Origin: Terriglobia bacterium | GTDB lineage: Bacteria; Acidobacteriota; Terriglobia; Terriglobales; Acidobacteriaceae | Assembly: GCA_020073165.1 (NCBI GenBank) | Contig: JAIQFP010000019.1 | Coordinates: 1 to 64,000, forward strand | Reading direction: 5' to 3' | DNA: 64,000 nucleotides | Part shown: in pieces, positions 828-35,010 of the stretch | How the letters are laid out: each line of letters begins with the position of its first letter | Position numbering within the stretch: position 1 is the stretch's first letter | Notes under the pieces: generated by a model | What the model saw: the letters and a program-made list of their open reading frames with translations, nothing else | What the model was told of the DNA's origin: nothing | Databases searched by the model: none | Program-made: the position numbers and the translations under genes

Positions 828-1334
828 TTGAATTGTTTGAGGATCTTCTCTATTATGTCCCTGTTATTTGTAATTGCCTGCGCAACCACAAAACATTCCG
901 GAGATAAAATACAGACAGCAGAGGCCCATTATAAAATCGGAGTGTCTTATCTCAATGACGCCAAGGCCCAGCAGGCTTTTGTGGAATTCCAGAGGGCCTA
1001 TGAACTCAATCCCAACAACAGGGAGGTCCTCAACGCCATAGGATTTATATACCTGGTACATTTTGATGATACCGCAAAGGCCATCGATTTCTTTGAAAAG
1101 GCCACAAAAGCCGACCCGAACTATTCCGATGCATATAATAACCTGGGGGTTGCCTATGAAAAGCTCGGGCAGTTTGACAAGGCAATACCTTTTTATAAAA
1201 AAGCCGTATCCAATCTCCTATACTCCACCCCTGAACAGGCCTATAGAAACATGGGCAATTCCTATTACCGGCTCGGCAGATACGAAAACGCGCTTAATTC
1301 CTACAAGGAAGCTCTTAGAAGGGCGCCTGAGATG
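828..1334 (+). CDS. TPR-repeat lipoprotein (PilF-like), 3' truncated at the chimeric joint
   Basis: TTG start at 828, chosen because AAGGAGG at 812-818 sits nine bases upstream. A TTG at 819 would be too close. The N-terminus is a lipoprotein signal ending in a VIAC lipobox, followed by TPR units with the expected ALNPNN/ADPNY turns (Y..G..Y....Q..A...F..A..LNP, then AYNNLGVAYEKLGQ and AYRNMGNSYYRLG). The order resembles PilF/PilW-type outer-membrane lipoproteins that help assemble type IV pilus secretins, but the role is inferred. Meaningful coding stops near EALRRAPEM at about 1330. The frame stays open further only because it then reads antisense atpF. Confidence 0.8.
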
Positions 1335-1748
1335 CTCGCTGGCAAGCTTTCCGGCTTCCGCCTGCAGGCTGGCCTGGGCCAACAGTTTGTCCTTTTCGAT
1401 CGCAGATCGGGCTTGCTCGACTTGCGTCTGGGCCACCGCACGCGCCTCTGCCAAGGCTGCCGCACGCGCCTGCAGCGCCTGCTGGCGGCGCACTTCCAGG
1501 TTCTTGAACACTGCCAGGCGGGCTTCCCGCAGACGCTGCTCGTACTCCGCGGTCCGCGCCTCGGCCGCGGCAATGTCAGCCCGCGCCCTTTCGATGGCGC
1601 CCTCAGTCTTACTGCGCCGCTCCGCCAGAACCTGGACCAAGGGCCGATGCACGAGCACCGTGTAGGTGCCATACAGCAGGACCATAAAGACGATGGTCGG
1701 GATGGCTCCGAGCAGTAATCCGCCTAGTTGTGCCAGCAACTGATCCAT
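1332..1748 (-). CDS. atpF: ATP synthase F0 subunit b, 3' truncated
   Basis: ATG at 1748 gives MDQLLAQLGG, one membrane helix (about residues 8-28), then the charged helix of subunit b: HRPLVQVLAERRSKTEGAI, AEARTAEYEQRL, and long Ala/Glu/Arg heptads ending in AEAGKLASE. In the F1F0 ATP synthase subunit b is the peripheral stator linking F0 to F1. A full subunit b is usually about 155-180 residues. Here recognisable sequence ends after about 137, at the joint with the foreign TPR gene, and the downstream atp genes are absent. An in-frame extension upstream to 1802 lacks any ribosome site and is not used. Confidence 0.85.
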
Positions 1749-1792
1749 AGGGGTTGATAAGAACCCGAGCTTAAGAGGGCTTAAAACCCTCA

Positions 1793-1821
1793 AAACTAAC
1801 ATCCTACGAGACGAGTGTCAA
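1793..1821 (-). promoter_or_regulatory. Possible promoter for atpF
   Basis: On the minus strand TTGACA (1821-1816) is followed after 17 bases by TAGTTT (1798-1793), about 45 bases before the atpF ATG. The -35 box is perfect and the -10 box matches only three of six positions. A small GAGGG/CCCTC stem-loop lies in the leader. Confidence 0.4.
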
Positions 1822-5962: not shown

Positions 5963-6694
5963 ATGCACCTTGCCACCACTTTGTCCGCCTTCCTGGCGAG
6001 CCCCACCCACACCTGGAATGAAAACCTTCAGTTCTACTTGCGCTGGTTTCACTTCCTCGCAGGCATCACCTGGATCGGGCTGCTCTACTTTTTCAACCTG
6101 ATTAACGTCCCCTTCATGAAGCAGGTGGACGCTGCCATGAAGCCCAAGGTGTTCCAGTACATGACCCTGCCGGCTTTGCAGTGGTTCCGCTGGAGCGCCC
6201 TGCTCACCGTAATCTTCGGCTTCTGGTATTGGGCTCAGATCTACGTCGCAGGCGACGCTGAGCGCATGGGTGTGAGCCCCTGGAGCACCGTCGGATACTT
6301 CCTGCTGGTCTGGATTGTGACCTGGGCGATTCTTGCCGTGGTGATCACAAAAATGGCCCCGAGTGGCTACGTACTGTTCGCCATCACCACGGTTCTGGTC
6401 ATCCTCGCAGGCTGGCTGTTCGTCAATTACACGCCCGTAGGGCAGGACGACAACCACGTCCTCGCCATCGGCGTGGGCGGTGGATTCGGCCTGGTCATGC
6501 TGCTGAATGTCTGGGGAATTATCTGGCGCAACAACAAGGCAGTGATTCAGGGAACTCTGGCCGGCAGTCCGCCGGCCAATGCGGCTGTGCTGGGGCGGCA
6601 GGCGTTCCTGGCGTCGCGCACCAACTTCTATCTGTCGATCCCGATGCTGTTTTTCATGGCCTCCAGTTACCACTACGGGATCTTCGGCAAATAG
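5963..6694 (+). CDS. PuuD-like membrane protein (urate oxidase N-terminal domain family)
   Basis: 243 residues with about six to seven membrane helices. The opening NLQFYLRWFHFLAGITWIGLLYFFNLINVPFM, quoted only by position (residues about 20-51), is the hallmark of the PF06181 family. Later motifs are MLLNVWGIIWRNNKAVIQ and SIPMLFFMASSYHYGIFG. Characterised PuuD joins this domain to a C-terminal cytochrome c domain and oxidises urate at the membrane. Here the protein ends with the membrane domain and no CxxCH is present, so urate oxidation is not shown. GGAGG stands seven bases before the ATG. A strong terminator follows. Confidence 0.75.
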   Translation: MHLATTLSAFLASPTHTWNENLQFYLRWFHFLAGITWIGLLYFFNLINVPFMKQVDAAMKPKVFQYMTLPALQWFRWSALLTVIFGFWYWAQIYVAGDAERMGVSPWSTVGYFLLVWIVTWAILAVVITKMAPSGYVLFAITTVLVILAGWLFVNYTPVGQDDNHVLAIGVGGGFGLVMLLNVWGIIWRNNKAVIQGTLAGSPPANAAVLGRQAFLASRTNFYLSIPMLFFMASSYHYGIFGK

Positions 6695-6713
6695 GCATCG
6701 GCGGTCTTTCCTG

Positions 6714-6744
6714 GCCTCGCGCTGCGGCGCGAGGCTTTTCTTTT
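6714..6744 (+). terminator. Intrinsic terminator after the PuuD-like gene
   Basis: A nine-pair GC-rich stem (GCCTCGCGC at 6714-6722 with GCGCGAGGC at 6727-6735) with a TGCG loop is followed by TTTTCTTTT. The next gene is convergent, so this closes the single-gene transcript. Confidence 0.85.
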
Positions 6745-6774
6745 CCCCAATCTCCTCCCAGGATGCAGTCGCTC

Positions 6775-7374
6775 CTAAGACGTTCCAGCACGGCGATTGT
6801 CGAATGTGGACTCCAAAGACCGCTCCGGGAGCACGCAAACCGCCCCCTCGGAGAACCCCTGCGACTCGATCCCCAAGGCGTGATCGAAGCGTGCGCGGTA
6901 GTTCTCCCAAGCAATGGAGGCCGTGAGTTCCACAAGCTGCGCATCGTTGAAGTGCTGGCGCAGAGCGGTAACGAGGGGGTCGGGTACCTCCACCGGCGTC
7001 CGAGTCATCTCAACCGCGTACTCGATCACCAGCTTCTCCAGCGGCGAAAACACCTCGCTCTCCTGGTAGTGGGGCAGTGCGAGAATCTGAGCCTGAGTCA
7101 CACCGAGTCCTCTGCCAACGGCAGAGCCGATGTCCATTCAAAAAGGGCACCCAACCATGGCGGCGGCCTTCATGCTGGCAAGCGCCTTCAGGCGGGCATC
7201 GACAAGCCTGGACCGGTCCAGCATGAACTCGAAGGTTGCAACTCCGCGGAAAACGGACCGGTGGTGTGAGGTGATCAGGAGAGGCTCAAGTTCCTTGCCT
7301 AGCCGGCGCTTGGTCATCCAACTGGTGATGCGCGCGACGAACCCTAACCTCTGCGGGGGAGCGATTCGGGCCAT
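6775..7374 (-). CDS. Carboxymuconolactone decarboxylase / AhpD-like protein, probable selenoprotein (CxxU)
   Basis: Read through one in-frame TGA (7140-7138), the gene encodes 199 residues from ATG 7374 (GGGAGG just upstream). The first half (RLVDARLKALASMKAA) ends in GCPF, then UGA, and the second half continues MDIGSAVGRGLGV, SPLEKLVIEYAVEMTRTP and ASIAWENYRARFDHALG. Homologous CMD/AhpD proteins have C-x-x-C at this point, so UGA replaces the second Cys: Cys76-Pro-Phe-Sec79. A perfect seven-pair hairpin begins 11 bases after the UGA, placing its apical loop 18 bases downstream, as required for bacterial SECIS. AhpD-like selenoproteins are known. A thiol/selenol peroxidase or reductase role is inferred. 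It overlaps the upstream membrane gene by 31 bases. Conventional calling would split it into two ORFs. Confidence 0.8.
7110..7126 (-). promoter_or_regulatory. Putative bacterial SECIS hairpin
   Basis: On the mRNA, CUCUGCC (7126-7120), loop GUU (7119-7117) and GGCAGAG (7116-7110) form a perfect seven-pair stem. The loop starts 18 nucleotides after the UGA at 7140-7138, within the 16-37 window of the bSECIS model, and its first base is the expected G. SelB would bind it to insert selenocysteine. Confidence 0.7.
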
Positions 7375-7760
7375 TGTGCCTCCCGGGGCCACCAGCGTGG
7401 TGCGCACAGCACCAGCAGAATTGCGGTGGGGGCGAAAACTCCCGGCAGATCCAGCAGCCAGTGGTGAGTCCCCAGGCGCCCGGTGACCAAATCATATAGA
7501 TGCACCAGCGTGTGGAGGAGATTGAAGGCGGCCGCTGCCATGACCACGCCGCGGTGTCGCGATGCCCGCGCGGCAGTAAAGCAAAATACGACGCCCAGCG
7601 TGAGATACGCGGCCCCGATGTCACGAACGAAATGCGTATTCAGTGGCCCGGTATCGGGCACGCCCGCAGGAAGGCCGTAGTACCAGCTGCTGGGTGCCGC
7701 CATCATCCACAGGCCGTTGCCCAAGCTGAGGAGGCCAAAAATCCAGAAGATCGCTCGCAT
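7344..7760 (-). CDS. Small four-helix membrane protein upstream of the selenoprotein
   Basis: 138 residues with four hydrophobic segments (about 4-22, 44-62, 70-92 and 102-120). The loop after helix 1 carries PLNTHFVRDIGAAYLTLG, and helix 3 contains NLLHTLVHLYDL with several His residues, suggestive of a metal or cofactor site but unproven. No catalytic family is recognised; a DoxX-like four-helix fold is possible. It starts 15 bases after the stop of the phosphodiesterase gene and ends inside the start of the CMD/Sec gene, so translation of the two is probably coupled and a shared redox job is plausible. Confidence 0.7.
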   Translation of the reverse strand: MRAIFWIFGLLSLGNGLWMMAAPSSWYYGLPAGVPDTGPLNTHFVRDIGAAYLTLGVVFCFTAARASRHRGVVMAAAAFNLLHTLVHLYDLVTGRLGTHHWLLDLPGVFAPTAILLVLCAPRWWPREAQWPESLPRRG

Positions 7761-7775
7761 GGGTTTCGGCCCCCG

Positions 7776-9953
7776 TCAGGCGCCTGAGGATGCGACGGTC
7801 CAGGGCTTACCGTCAAAGTGGGCGGGCAAACCGAGCCCAAAGAGCTTGAGGATGGTGGGCGCTACATCCACGATAGCGGGTTTCTCTTCGGCAATTTTGC
7901 GATTGCAGAAAAGGACGCCCGGGACCAGGCGAGGATCAATGCAGTGATCGCCGCTCCAGGCCTTGAGGTTGTCCTCGAAGATTTTCTCCGTGACCTTCCC
8001 CATGACCGAATCCCACGAAGCGCGGAATCCGTCGCCGTAGCCGACAATCAGATCGGGGGCGTTGTCCACGTAAGGCCCGGCGTAGACAGCGTCGCAGTCG
8101 AAGACTCCAGTGATGCCAATCCGCCCGGAAGCCGGGTCTGCCAGTCCATTCAGTTTGGTGCGCAGTTCGTCTTTCAGCGTCTCGGCGGCAGACGGCTCCA
8201 CAATGCCCTGGCGCTCACGGCCTTTCACATTCAGGTAGAGACCGTTCAGGCCCATGGTATAGGCGCGGGTGCGCGACCAATCCACATCTTCGAACCAGTC
8301 TCCGCTTTCCGTCTTACCGTCCTTCAGCGCCAGGTATCCGTTCTGGTGCAGCCAGGCATTCAGGTTTACACAGCGGGCAAACGATTTGAAACCGTGATCG
8401 GAGACGACCATCAGCAGAGTGTCATCGTCAATCTGCTGCATGACGCGGCCAATGAGCCCGTCCATGCGCTGGTACAACTCCTGGATGATGTTGGGACGTT
8501 GGTCGCGAGGCACGTTGCGGGCCGCCGGGTGATCGTCATCCAGGTAACGCCAGAACATGTGCTGGACACGATCGGTCGTATCGAAGACACAGGCGCAGAG
8601 ACCCTTTTGGGTTTTTTCCAGCGCATCAAAGAGCATGCGCTCGCGGTCTTCGTGGTTGCCGTAGGCCTGGGCCAGGAACGCATCGTCGTCCAGGACTTCT
8701 TCGTTCAGCGCCCAGGTGTCTTCCGCCAGGCCCAGCGTGGCGTAGGGACCAAACAGTTTCGCGAGATAGATCGAGTAGGTCACGGGATGGGAGATGGGAA
8801 GATCGGGGCGCCCCGGATCGATGTTTACCGGCGTGACGTAGACCTCCACCTCAGGTGCAATCTGCTTCAGGTAAAAGCGGCAAATGCCGTGGGCGCCCAT
8901 GCCGAGCGCAGCTTTGAACTTCACCGGAATCCACTCGGAGTACTCTCCGACCTTCAGAGTGAACTTCTGCGAGTCCACTTCCATGCGCGCCTGGTTGCGG
9001 TCAGGGTCAGGCCGCAACTCAAAATCAACCCGCAATTCGTGCCCGGAACCTTCCGCCAGTGGATCTTCCGGCCCGGGAATGTACGACCGACACACGCTCC
9101 CATCTCGCTCCATGGCAATGCGCACACCACCCTCGCGGAACTTGTCTCCCGAGGAGCGAGTGGTGCAAAAGCAGAAGGTTCCCTGGCTTCCCTTCAGATC
9201 GGGCACGCACATGCCGGACAGCAGTACGCCGGGGAATTTTTCCGGCGGGAAAGTGACCGGCACGCGAATCACCGAGCAGAAGATGCCCGACTTCCCCAGC
9301 CAGTGCCAGAACGGAGTGCCCTTGCGCATGCCCTTGATATTGGTCTTGCCCACCGGAATGGAATACTTGCCAATCTTCCAATGCCGCTTCGGTCCTTTGA
9401 TCTCCGCCGAGGAAAGAAACGGAAGATAAGTGCTCAAATCTCGAGCGAGGAAGTCGTAGATATTGTGTTTACCGGGATTCACTCCCGTCATGAACGTGGA
9501 CCAGGCCACGGGAGAGATCGCCGGAAATGTGGTGCGCAACTTGCGGAATGTGCCTTGTTCGCGGAGTTTGGCCAGGTTCGGCAGCTTGCCCTCGCCCATG
9601 AAACGCTCAGCCAGTTCCGGATCCATCCCGTCAAATCCAAGAATGACGGCGCGCTTGAACTGCGCCTTGCCGTAGGCCTTGCGGCGCTTCATGGTGCGCA
9701 GCAGGTGACGGAAAGGCCAGGTCAGCAAGGCGTACAGCGAGTAGAGAAACGCAACAAACAAAGTCCAAAACGACGAGAGGACGGCGAATCCTGCTCCTGG
9801 ACCAGCATAGGCGTGCCCAGGCAAGGGAAACAGGACAACCACGAGCAGCAACAGCACCAGCACCGGTGTGGCGCAGGCACTCCTGCCCGCGACTCGCGAC
9901 CGCAACTGGCGGACAAAAGCGGCCGCCCCACACCAACCGACGCTACGTTTCAT
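7776..9953 (-). CDS. Membrane-anchored alkaline phosphatase family protein (type I phosphodiesterase / nucleotide pyrophosphatase)
   Basis: 725 residues from ATG 9953, chosen because it overlaps the upstream stop as ATGA. The N-terminal about 110 residues hold two hydrophobic stretches and a basic segment. The catalytic domain starts with VILGFDGMDPELAERF (metal Asp), the nucleophile region is SPVAWSTFMTGVNPG (Ser or Thr), and later come FDTTDRVQHMFWRY, VVSDHGFKSF and GDHC. These are the two-zinc ligands of the NPP/alkaline phosphatase superfamily. Substrate unknown; phosphodiesters or phospho-glycans are candidates. It is a paralogue of the gene at 11042-13033 in the same operon. Confidence 0.8.
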   Translation of the reverse strand: MKRSVGWCGAAAFVRQLRSRVAGRSACATPVLVLLLLVVVLFPLPGHAYAGPGAGFAVLSSFWTLFVAFLYSLYALLTWPFRHLLRTMKRRKAYGKAQFKRAVILGFDGMDPELAERFMGEGKLPNLAKLREQGTFRKLRTTFPAISPVAWSTFMTGVNPGKHNIYDFLARDLSTYLPFLSSAEIKGPKRHWKIGKYSIPVGKTNIKGMRKGTPFWHWLGKSGIFCSVIRVPVTFPPEKFPGVLLSGMCVPDLKGSQGTFCFCTTRSSGDKFREGGVRIAMERDGSVCRSYIPGPEDPLAEGSGHELRVDFELRPDPDRNQARMEVDSQKFTLKVGEYSEWIPVKFKAALGMGAHGICRFYLKQIAPEVEVYVTPVNIDPGRPDLPISHPVTYSIYLAKLFGPYATLGLAEDTWALNEEVLDDDAFLAQAYGNHEDRERMLFDALEKTQKGLCACVFDTTDRVQHMFWRYLDDDHPAARNVPRDQRPNIIQELYQRMDGLIGRVMQQIDDDTLLMVVSDHGFKSFARCVNLNAWLHQNGYLALKDGKTESGDWFEDVDWSRTRAYTMGLNGLYLNVKGRERQGIVEPSAAETLKDELRTKLNGLADPASGRIGITGVFDCDAVYAGPYVDNAPDLIVGYGDGFRASWDSVMGKVTEKIFEDNLKAWSGDHCIDPRLVPGVLFCNRKIAEEKPAIVDVAPTILKLFGLGLPAHFDGKPWTVASSGA

Positions 9954-10759
9954 ATCTCGATCCCCAAGACTTCCTTGAAAATAAACCCCGCCACCATGGA
10001 GAGCACAAAGAACAGGACGATCCAGTTCCACTCCAGCCAGGCGAAGTTGATATTGCGCGGCAGGTAGGTCACCGCAATCGACTCAATCGGGCTGCTGTCG
10101 GGCAACGCCGGCTCCCCCGAGACAAAGATCCGCTCCCAGAAACGGTCGCGCATCCGTTCCGGAGAAAGACGGCTGACATCGCCGGCCACCACAACTGTCT
10201 TGGAGTACGTTTGCCCGCCGGACAAAACATTAATGTCGTACTCGCCATCCTTCTGCGCCACCACCCGCCACACCACTTCATTATCCGCCGGAACATGCAC
10301 CGCGGGAGCGGAAATCGACATCTCAGCCGGCAACTGCAGAGACACACCATTCAGTGTGTCCGGTGCCGTTTGCACTGTCACTAGGAAGGGTTGCGCGGTC
10401 TGCATGGGCACCGAACCCAGGTAGCGGTCCACTTGGACAATCAACAGAGTGATGGGAATGATGACGTACAACAAGGGCATGAATGCCAGCCGGATGTAGC
10501 GCCCGGTGCCGAGAATGATCCGCCCATAGGTTCGCAGCACTACAGGCAACTGGTCCTGGTACAAGCGGACAGCCAACAGGTGCGCCTTGAGCTGATCCTT
10601 GGCGACTTTGATGGCTTTCTGGTTCGAGGTGTAGCCAAAAAGCAGCACCATGAGCAGCCCGACCACCAGCGAGAGCACGATTACGATCGCCAGGGGACTG
10701 TTCGGGAGAAAAACACCGAGAGCTGCGGCCGGTGGTGGTTGAGTGAGGACGAATGGCAT
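9950..10759 (-). CDS. Membrane protein with an Oxa1/EMC3 (DUF106)-like arrangement
   Basis: 269 residues. Helix 1 (about 21-43) is followed by a basic amphipathic hairpin (NQKAIKVAKDQLKAHLLAVR, then about 15 residues more), two closely spaced helices (about 88-112), a beta-rich extracytoplasmic domain with PAEMSISAP, VVWRVVAQKDGEYDINV and SGGQTYSKTVVV, and a last helix (about 243-262). A cytosolic basic coiled coil after TM1 is the pattern of DUF106/EMC3/TMCO1 insertases, so an insertase-like fold is possible, though there is no proof. It ends in an ATGA overlap with the phosphodiesterase gene, so the two are translated together. Confidence 0.6.
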   Translation of the reverse strand: MPFVLTQPPPAAALGVFLPNSPLAIVIVLSLVVGLLMVLLFGYTSNQKAIKVAKDQLKAHLLAVRLYQDQLPVVLRTYGRIILGTGRYIRLAFMPLLYVIIPITLLIVQVDRYLGSVPMQTAQPFLVTVQTAPDTLNGVSLQLPAEMSISAPAVHVPADNEVVWRVVAQKDGEYDINVLSGGQTYSKTVVVAGDVSRLSPERMRDRFWERIFVSGEPALPDSSPIESIAVTYLPRNINFAWLEWNWIVLFFVLSMVAGFIFKEVLGIEI

Positions 10760-30775: not shown

Positions 30776-31094
30776 TGTCGTAACTCGCTTTCAGTTCCGG
30801 ATACGCGAAAGCCGGCAGCAATAAACACTGCCCAATGCCAATCGCTCATACCGGAACGGGGATGTTGAAAGCCTCCCAGCGGCTCAGCCGGTTCACTGCA
30901 CCTCGCGGTGCCCAACCGGCGGGGATGTTGTAGCCACTGTTACTTCCTTACCACTATTTGGATGCTCAGAGGCGGTGAGAAGCGTCGCTTTTTTCGACCA
31001 AAGTCACAGCCGGTGGTGACCTGAGTACCCAGCCCTATTGTGCACTGCCGGAAGTGCGGAGCGCAAGGTGGTTGTCCAGGGGCGCCCGCTAGCC
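30776..31094. other. Non-coding spacer
   Basis: No supported gene. It contains ACTGTTACTT near 30937-30946 (related to the GTAACnGTTAC motif found elsewhere), a CACCTCGCGGTG palindrome near 30899-30910, and CACAGCCGGTGGTGAC near 31006-31020. No promoter or terminator was convincing. Confidence 0.35.
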
Positions 31095-34706: not shown

Positions 34707-34831
34707 TCTACACCGAAGCCACTTCTCTTTGATTCACGATGCTTTGGATAGGAGACAAAAGGGCGGGAACACGCCACCGTTTCCTTTCCAAGCACGGGAG
34801 GCGCCGGCGTTTCCACCAGGCACCCTCGGGC

Positions 34832-34857
34832 TGTAGCGCCGGCGTCCCGCCGGCCAC
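34832..34857. repeat. 26-bp palindromic repeat, copy 1
   Basis: TGTAGCGCCGGCGTCCCGCC plus GGCCAC, identical to the copy at 41248-41273. The core GCCGGCG/CGCCGGC forms a seven-pair stem around TCC. REP-like intergenic element. Confidence 0.7.
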
Positions 34858-35010
34858 TAAAGCCCTCGCCACCGCAGCCAGGGTATGCCCGCAGGCCGCG
34901 GCGGTCGGAAACTCCTGACTATTATACGATGACCGGGAACGCAGGGGGTTTCAAGGTTTCAACTTCATGCGTGGCATTCGACGCCAGGTGGTGTGAGATT
35001 GGCAAGCGAG

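Follow-up and report, generated by a model that had tools for sequence, protein, structure and literature searches.

The catalytic motif of AhpD is C-x-x-C-x-x-x-H, and its attacking cysteine is the second Cys of the C-x-x-C part. AhpD-like (COG2128) and carboxymuconolactone-decarboxylase (CMD) domain (PF02627) selenoproteins with a CxxU motif, U being selenocysteine (Sec), were reported in 2005 from the Sargasso Sea (PMC1088965), were counted in 2006 (PMC1794560) and in 2008 in the GOS data (PMC2398784), and are listed in the reviews of 2022 (PMC9312934) and 2026 (PMC13188914), the latter giving TIGR01926 as the identifier of the AhpD-like selenoprotein; all this is according to the portions of these papers available to us. 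Another described system is that of CMD proteins under the control of ECF41 sigma factors (COE), and in the available portions of the ECF41 paper all linked CMDs are stated to have CxxC (PMC3426412).

The window, i.e. the whole stretch of 64,000 nucleotides from contig JAIQFP010000019.1 of a Terriglobia bacterium, carries a gene related to these systems on its minus strand, at the coordinates 6775-7374 which the initial annotation had correctly given. The features of the locus are as follows.

6775..7374, minus strand: selenoprotein CDS, 199 aa with U79; PF02627 at 28.4 bits against a gathering score of 23; AlphaFold2 pLDDT 93.6
7138..7140, minus strand: in-frame TGA (UGA), read as Sec; the 93 aligned sequences have Sec (52), Cys (40) or Ser (1) here
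7110..7126, minus strand: bacterial SECIS-type hairpin, 7 pairs (7126-7120 with 7116-7110), loop GUU (7119-7117)
7379..7384, minus strand: ribosome-binding site GGGAGG, 4 nt before the ATG at 7374
7344..7760, minus strand: DUF4345 membrane protein, 138 aa; PF14248 at 27.3 bits against a cut-off of 26.5
7776..10031, minus strand: type I phosphodiesterase/nucleotide pyrophosphatase-like protein (PF01663), upstream in the same run

The CDS runs from the ATG at 7374-7372 to the TAG at 6777-6775, and with TGA translated as U it reads MARIAPPQRL...MVGCPF-U-MDIGSAVGRG...RRAGTS with a single TGA, at residue 79. As had been proposed from the letters, this in-frame TGA (7140-7138) falls on the second Cys place of the C-x-x-C motif (GCPF-U-MDIGSA), the frame is intact on either side of it and open for 199 aa from the ATG, and standard ORF calling indeed halves the gene, into 7407..7138 (89 aa) and 7137..6775 (120 aa). 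The start of the selenoprotein gene and the end of the upstream ORF share 31 nt. The plus-strand frame from 6775 is interrupted by stops and gives no coding frame, no sigma-70-like promoter was seen in 6600-7900, and Rfam scans returned nothing relevant within the selenoprotein gene.

The PF02627 score lies above the gathering score and places the protein in the CMD superfamily, and the AlphaFold2 model, built from 50 aligned sequences, is all-helical with a mean pLDDT of 93.6, so that the CMD/AhpD-like assignment is borne out by profile and by predicted fold. The best solved matches are AhpD/peroxidase-related proteins, with Foldseek E-values down to 2e-6, namely 6k40 (Z 22.4), 2oyo (Z 22.0), 2prr (Z 20.8) and the debrominase Bmp8 (6ohi, Z 20.5), followed by 2gmy and 2o4d near Z 19. 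With the AhpD-like selenoprotein family (COG2128/TIGR01926) the window protein shares the CMD/AhpD family, the Sec at the second place of C-x-x-U, the SECIS element and the existence of Cys homologues, but it scores 25.8 bits where the TIGR01926 cut-off is 81.8, and its motif is C-x-F-U-x-D-I-G-S without a downstream His. The loose AhpD core-domain model TIGR00778 is passed by a few relatives, not by the window protein. The nearest named model is NF053654, the "YciW-related (seleno)protein" (GroundWater_YciW), which matches over profile positions 23-175 with E 1.3e-37 and gives 129.3 bits, below the cut-off of 310. Two relatives (L022 and L023) pass this cut-off with 320-324 bits and have both CxFU and the SECIS register of the window, but QDINAA and ENxSSKF stand in them at the places of MDIGSA and ENYRARF in the window protein. 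The QDINAA motif recurs in six Sec sequences of our alignment (L022, L023, L024, L028, L029 and L032, the first two being those tested), and the window protein together with 14 tested relatives lacking it reaches 75-137 bits against the same cut-off. The CMD-domain (PF02627) CxxU selenoprotein, finally, has in common with the window protein the PF02627 score and the CxxU, and this catalogue entry may include the window's subgroup, which is not described in the open-licence literature searched. Since CxxU CMD proteins are already catalogued and the cut-off of NF053654 is missed, we count the subgroup as a known kind without a model of its own: CxxU AhpD/CMD selenoproteins are known, and new is a subgroup that has no own model in the family library checked. 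The label "new-type" chosen in the initial annotation, which itself remarked that AhpD-like selenoproteins are known, is not borne out in view of the catalogues of 2005 to 2026, in the portions available.

Relatives were collected from two sources. In the phylum, a search of 396 genomes at E 1e-15 gave 22 matches in 19 genomes, and the 13 matches sharing C-x-F-[UC]-x-D were kept (12 Sec, the window included, and 1 Cys, L027); nine more distant ones (L030, L031, L033-L037, L039 and L040) are excluded from the counts below, and three of them (L033, L035 and L040) have UGA at the CxxU place too, but with a different motif. From GTDB genomes, relatives were fetched with a query pattern taken from the stretch well downstream of the UGA, where the contig scan with a single protein as query found no relative and the alignment query found 324; the best 80 of these 324 comprise 40 Sec, 39 Cys and 1 Ser form, and the nearest among them (L044-L050) are 59-64% identical to the window protein. 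In the resulting 93 aligned sequences, the window included, the in-frame UGA aligns with Cys in homologues, the counts at residue 79 being 52 Sec, 40 Cys and 1 Ser, so that the alignment proposed in the initial annotation shows UGA or Cys there in all rows except one. The gene is sporadic, since among the 396 phylum genomes the UGA form of the window's type occurs in 11 and the Cys form in 1. To judge from record titles or taxonomic labels, Sec forms are found in Acidobacteriota, Rubrobacteraceae, Rokubacteria, Myxococcota, Binatota, Planctomycetota, Chloroflexota and Pseudomonadota, and Actinomycetota hold about 30 of the 40 Cys forms. On a quick tree 8 Sec/Cys switches are required, of which starred branches force at least 4; shuffled labels require about 30. 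As a separate observation, a Rokubacterial sequence (L059:6001-6561) carries a Ser codon (TCG) at the place of the UGA of its sisters L055 and L062; it nevertheless retains 6 of the 7 pairs of the hairpin, tRNA-Sec is present in its genome, and it possibly represents a recent loss of Sec.

These counts bear directly on the supposition that the gene is decayed, the TGA being a plain nonsense mutation or a sequencing error and the downstream half a remnant. The two short ORFs of standard calling would suit such decay; however, the TGA stands at the same codon in 51 other sequences from several phyla with Cys in 40 more, and both halves are conserved, with Glu149 and Asn158 invariant downstream of the UGA. 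With Sec 52, Cys 40 and Ser 1 among the 93, neither a nonsense mutation, which had been judged improbable from the letters, nor a read error, which had been named as a possible refutation, explains the TGA.

The hairpin provides a second line of evidence. Directly behind the UGA it has 7 pairs and a small loop of 3 nt whose first base is G, at 18 nt from the UGA, all as the initial annotation had described for a bSECIS-type element, and conservation and covariation now back it. Its folding energy is ordinary (z -0.94, with 34 of 200 shuffles folding as well or better), which taken on its own would not contradict decay. When the gene is redrawn with synonymous codons sampled from its own usage, however, 7 pairs are kept in the window gene against 3.7 expected (P 0.012); likewise 41 Sec genes keep 6.44 pairs against 3.57 expected, the top of 500 simulated means being 4.20, and 40 non-Sec genes keep 2.83 against 2.51. 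Across the 52 Sec rows 7 pairs are kept in 30, 6 in 17, 5 in 4, and 3 in a single row (L081, in the register used), and the mean is 6.4 of 7 in Sec genes against 2.8 in the 41 other rows. Moreover, the region behind the UGA is free of gaps in the alignment of all 52 Sec rows, and columns 15-21 with 25-31 are paired in 92% of cells, a figure which falls to 37-53% when the partner is shifted by 1 to 3 columns. In the same rows there are 34 double-change cells against 7.0 in shuffles, and the covariation score is 0.337 against 0.112, neither value being reached in any of 500 shuffles; two-sided changes in 5 of the 7 pairs (2.6 in shuffles, 9 of 500 reaching 5) are a weaker measure. The innermost pair is broken in 13 of the 52 rows, and the first loop base is G in 49. 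Codon choice follows the hairpin as well: its Ser place has TCT in 37 of 43 cases in Sec rows against 83 of 604 Ser codons over 41 whole frames, and its Arg place has AGA or AGG in 36 of 39 against 139 of 1165 Arg codons over the same number of frames. The covariation, too, speaks against a decayed gene, and we find this explanation scarcely credible.

The initial annotation had called for a search of the genome for selA, selB, selC and selD, and all were found. The window's genome (4.6 Mb in 35 contigs, rated 100% complete) has one tRNA-Sec above the Rfam cut-off (70.3 bits), with anticodon TCA according to ARAGORN, together with selA (535 bits combined), selB (371 bits) and selD (341 bits combined). 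The selD gene carries its own in-frame TGA at AAG-U-ASK, which we take to be the usual Sec/Cys place of SelD, and for this reason its sequence makes it very likely that the genome produces at least one other selenoprotein, SelD. Among the relatives, tRNA-Sec at E 1e-9 is detected in 29 of the 40 genomes carrying a Sec form against 10 of the 39 carrying a Cys form (Fisher P 4e-5); this comparison leaves out the Ser row, whose genome does have tRNA-Sec. The 11 of 40 Sec-form genomes that gave no tRNA-Sec at this threshold are presumed to be incomplete bins. In the phylum sample all 11 genomes that hold a CxxU relative of the window's type have tRNA-Sec, against 5 of 20 genomes of the same family among those listed without the CMD gene; no tRNA-Sec was found at E 1e-9 in G110, whose CxxU protein belongs to another subgroup.

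Any stop codon can be read through, and thus the UGA might be read as Trp or by general readthrough rather than as Sec. Against this, the 41 rows without UGA have Cys in 40, Ser in 1 and Trp in none, the sel machinery is complete, and the hairpin is retained in the UGA rows and not in the others, so that a reading other than Sec deserves very little belief. The analysis demonstrates the open frame, the recoding signal and its machinery, the exchange of Sec and Cys, and the predicted fold, and we regard the product as very probably a true selenoprotein of the CMD/AhpD fold. SelB with Sec-tRNA(Sec) would recognise the hairpin behind the UGA, and we infer that in the living cell Sec is inserted as residue 79, which would be the second position of C76-P-F-U79.

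As to the chemistry of this protein, Cys76, Asp81, Glu149 and Asn158 are invariant throughout the 93 rows, while Glu157 is conserved in 92 of them. With M. tuberculosis AhpD the window protein has in common the helical core (Z about 11) and the CxxC place, but Sec replaces the second Cys and the His of C-x-x-C-x-x-x-H is missing, its place being taken by Gly83. This place is Gly or Asn in 48 of the 52 Sec rows and His in 2, and since the AhpD His is thus replaced, classical AhpD chemistry cannot be assumed for the selenoprotein. A C-terminal Cys180, in a part where the model is less certain, occurs in 34 of the 52 Sec rows and 35 of the 41 others and is a possible extra resolving Cys. We propose that the selenolate of Sec79 would attack a peroxide, a disulfide or a similar electrophilic substrate, that Cys76 would resolve the selenenyl intermediate as an Se-S bond, and that a cell thiol or a partner would then restore the enzyme, the best candidate for a partner being the DUF4345 membrane protein encoded directly upstream. 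For thiol/peroxide chemistry of this kind we consider the chances evenly balanced.

The protein could also be a reductive dehalogenase-like enzyme resembling Bmp8 (6ohi, 6ohj), which has itself been likened to the Sec enzyme thyroid deiodinase, rather than a peroxide or disulfide reductase. Bmp8 is among the closest solved relatives (profile E 2.9e-21; rmsd 2.6 over 180 residues at the Z of 20.5), it shares the fold and both Cys positions with the window protein, and Sec would presumably suit such chemistry. But Bmp8 has Cys and not Sec, and its substrate complex is, by the title of the entry, a C82A mutant, a number that we read as the first Cys, aligned with Cys76; Sec aligns with the second Cys of Bmp8, by this reading the one not mutated. 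Moreover, uncharacterised "peroxidase-related" proteins score equally well or better, and no halogenase-type Pfam match appears among the neighbour proteins scanned. Dehalogenation is therefore unlikely to be the activity of this protein, and the best reading is that of a redox enzyme that depends on Sec and belongs to a known kind, within a subfamily without a catalogue model of its own.

On the minus strand the phosphodiesterase-like gene (10031..7776) and the DUF4345 gene (7760..7344) are followed by the selenoprotein gene as the last of the run, and in this respect the remark that the gene ends an unusual operon stands; recurrence in relatives, however, applies to a single neighbour. When six neighbours (two phosphodiesterases, a 269-aa membrane protein, Urate_ox_N, Hfq and DUF4345) were compared by tblastn with the loci of the relatives, DUF4345 alone was matched, and a crude clustering of neighbour ORFs of at least 80 aa gave no group in more than 6 of 80 loci and missed the DUF4345 group too. 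A DUF4345 homologue directly precedes the CMD gene in L048, L067, L077 and L078 (tblastn E 5e-43 to 2e-27), as does a weaker match in L054, L073, L101 and L105 (profile E 2e-7 to 9e-14); because E-values of our home-made profiles mean nothing for the loci they were built from, tblastn or clustering is cited for those. In a Thermoleophilaceae sequence (L076:2138-3344) the DUF4345 and CMD domains stand in one open frame, apparently a natural fusion linking the two proteins. Apart from the window, 92 loci were searched, 80 of GTDB genomes and 12 of the phylum, with at least 600 bases upstream in 77 of the 80. DUF4345 is the upstream neighbour in 8 of them and fused in a ninth, 9 of 92 in total, and no DUF4345 neighbour was found in the other 83, all 12 phylum loci among them.

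DUF4345 of this kind is rare, being found at E 1e-6 in 2 of 297 phylum genomes, the window's own and G152, and in G152 the DUF4345 gene and the CMD gene are on different contigs. Ten aligned DUF4345 sequences have invariant Pro39, His43, Asp47, Phe79, His83 and His87. The DUF4345 model gave no significant fold match (best Foldseek E 0.12), and VKOR entries score Z 7 to 8, within the background of which the tool warns, so that a VKOR-like quinone site in DUF4345 is put forward as an idea only. From these data one may suppose that the selenoprotein is an electron carrier, i.e. a thioredoxin-like disulfide/selenenyl-sulfide reductase serving DUF4345, for instance in quinone or haem coupling, and no peroxidase at all. 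The upstream position in the window and in the eight loci, the in-frame fusion, the rarity of DUF4345 elsewhere and its invariant His43, Asp47, His83 and His87 agree with such a role; the 83 loci without this neighbour, the separate contigs in G152 and the lack of a significant fold match argue against it. On this balance the carrier role is conceivable but doubtful, and we keep to the Sec-dependent redox enzyme.

Some other features of the window may be recorded here. Convergent to the selenoprotein gene is a gene for a Urate_ox_N-domain membrane protein (5963-6694, plus strand, 60.5 bits), after which comes a GC-rich terminator-like hairpin (6713-6736). Around 1320-1340 a plus-strand TPR/PilF-like lipoprotein ORF (from 819) meets the antisense of an ATP-synthase-b-like ORF (1802..1218, minus strand), both names being read from the translations; the two seem cut at one place, which suggests a chimeric junction by assembly or recombination. 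The minus strand also carries a tandem pair of nadA-type riboswitch motifs (30787-30935) and a molybdenum cofactor riboswitch (34765-34922, 63.8 bits).

Turning to the ECF41 system, both Sec and Cys relatives adjoin SigJ/ECF41-type factors. An ECF41/SigJ-like factor is encoded no more than 1.5 kb from the CMD gene in 4 of the 40 Sec loci (L065, L072, L074 and L094) and in 7 of 40 other loci (L054, L068, L080, L082, L106, L107 and L109), where the label rests on the NCBIfam SigJ cut-off (passed by the factors of L065 and L094), the CMD neighbour, the promoter motif and the WLPEP motif, taken as a mark of ECF41. Matches in L120 (4.4 kb off and on the other strand), L076 (antisense) and L026 (weak, E 1.7e-11) were not counted. 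Of 80 upstream stretches, 5 contain the strict motif TGTCACA-N15-17-CGTC (1 Sec, L094, and 4 others), in every case some 50-100 bases ahead of the gene; about 0.1 strict sites would be expected by chance, as estimated with equal base frequencies. With two bases of the first box left free the motif occurs in 9 of 80 (3 Sec and 6 others), two of the Sec sites being far upstream. Thus TGTCACA-n16-CGTC with an adjacent factor, the arrangement of ECF41-linked CMDs, is found in some relatives and not at the window gene: the window has no ECF41 promoter motif anywhere, the looser form included, and its genome gives only weak ECF matches (best E 5e-8). In L094 (6009-7397) a CMD gene with UGA is preceded at about 50 bases by the strict motif and followed directly by an ECF41/SigJ-like gene, which makes it a candidate selenoprotein target of an ECF41 factor. 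In L074 (4671-5563) the matches to the ECF41/SigJ-like gene that adjoins the Sec gene fall in two frames, which resembles a frameshift. The open-licence literature searched holds no account of Sec in an ECF41-linked CMD, and "selen" occurs 0 times in the available text of PMC3426412.

Taken more broadly, the window protein could belong to a widespread, unnamed family of His-less CMD selenoproteins (C-x-F-U-x-D-I-G-S) which forms a membrane-linked redox module with the His-bearing DUF4345 protein and in some lineages is controlled by ECF41, a proposal that we make tentatively and hold at slightly less than even credence. Standard ORF calling splits genes of this sort, which can be overlooked or annotated as pseudogenes. 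With its many natural pairs of Sec and Cys forms that share a fold, and with no fewer than four forced exchanges on the tree, the family is a good set for studying the contribution of selenium. It also gives two testable leads, namely the unstudied membrane partner DUF4345 and the selenoprotein targets of ECF41 sigma factors; if the proposal is true, some ECF41 targets stated to have CxxC would in fact carry selenocysteine.
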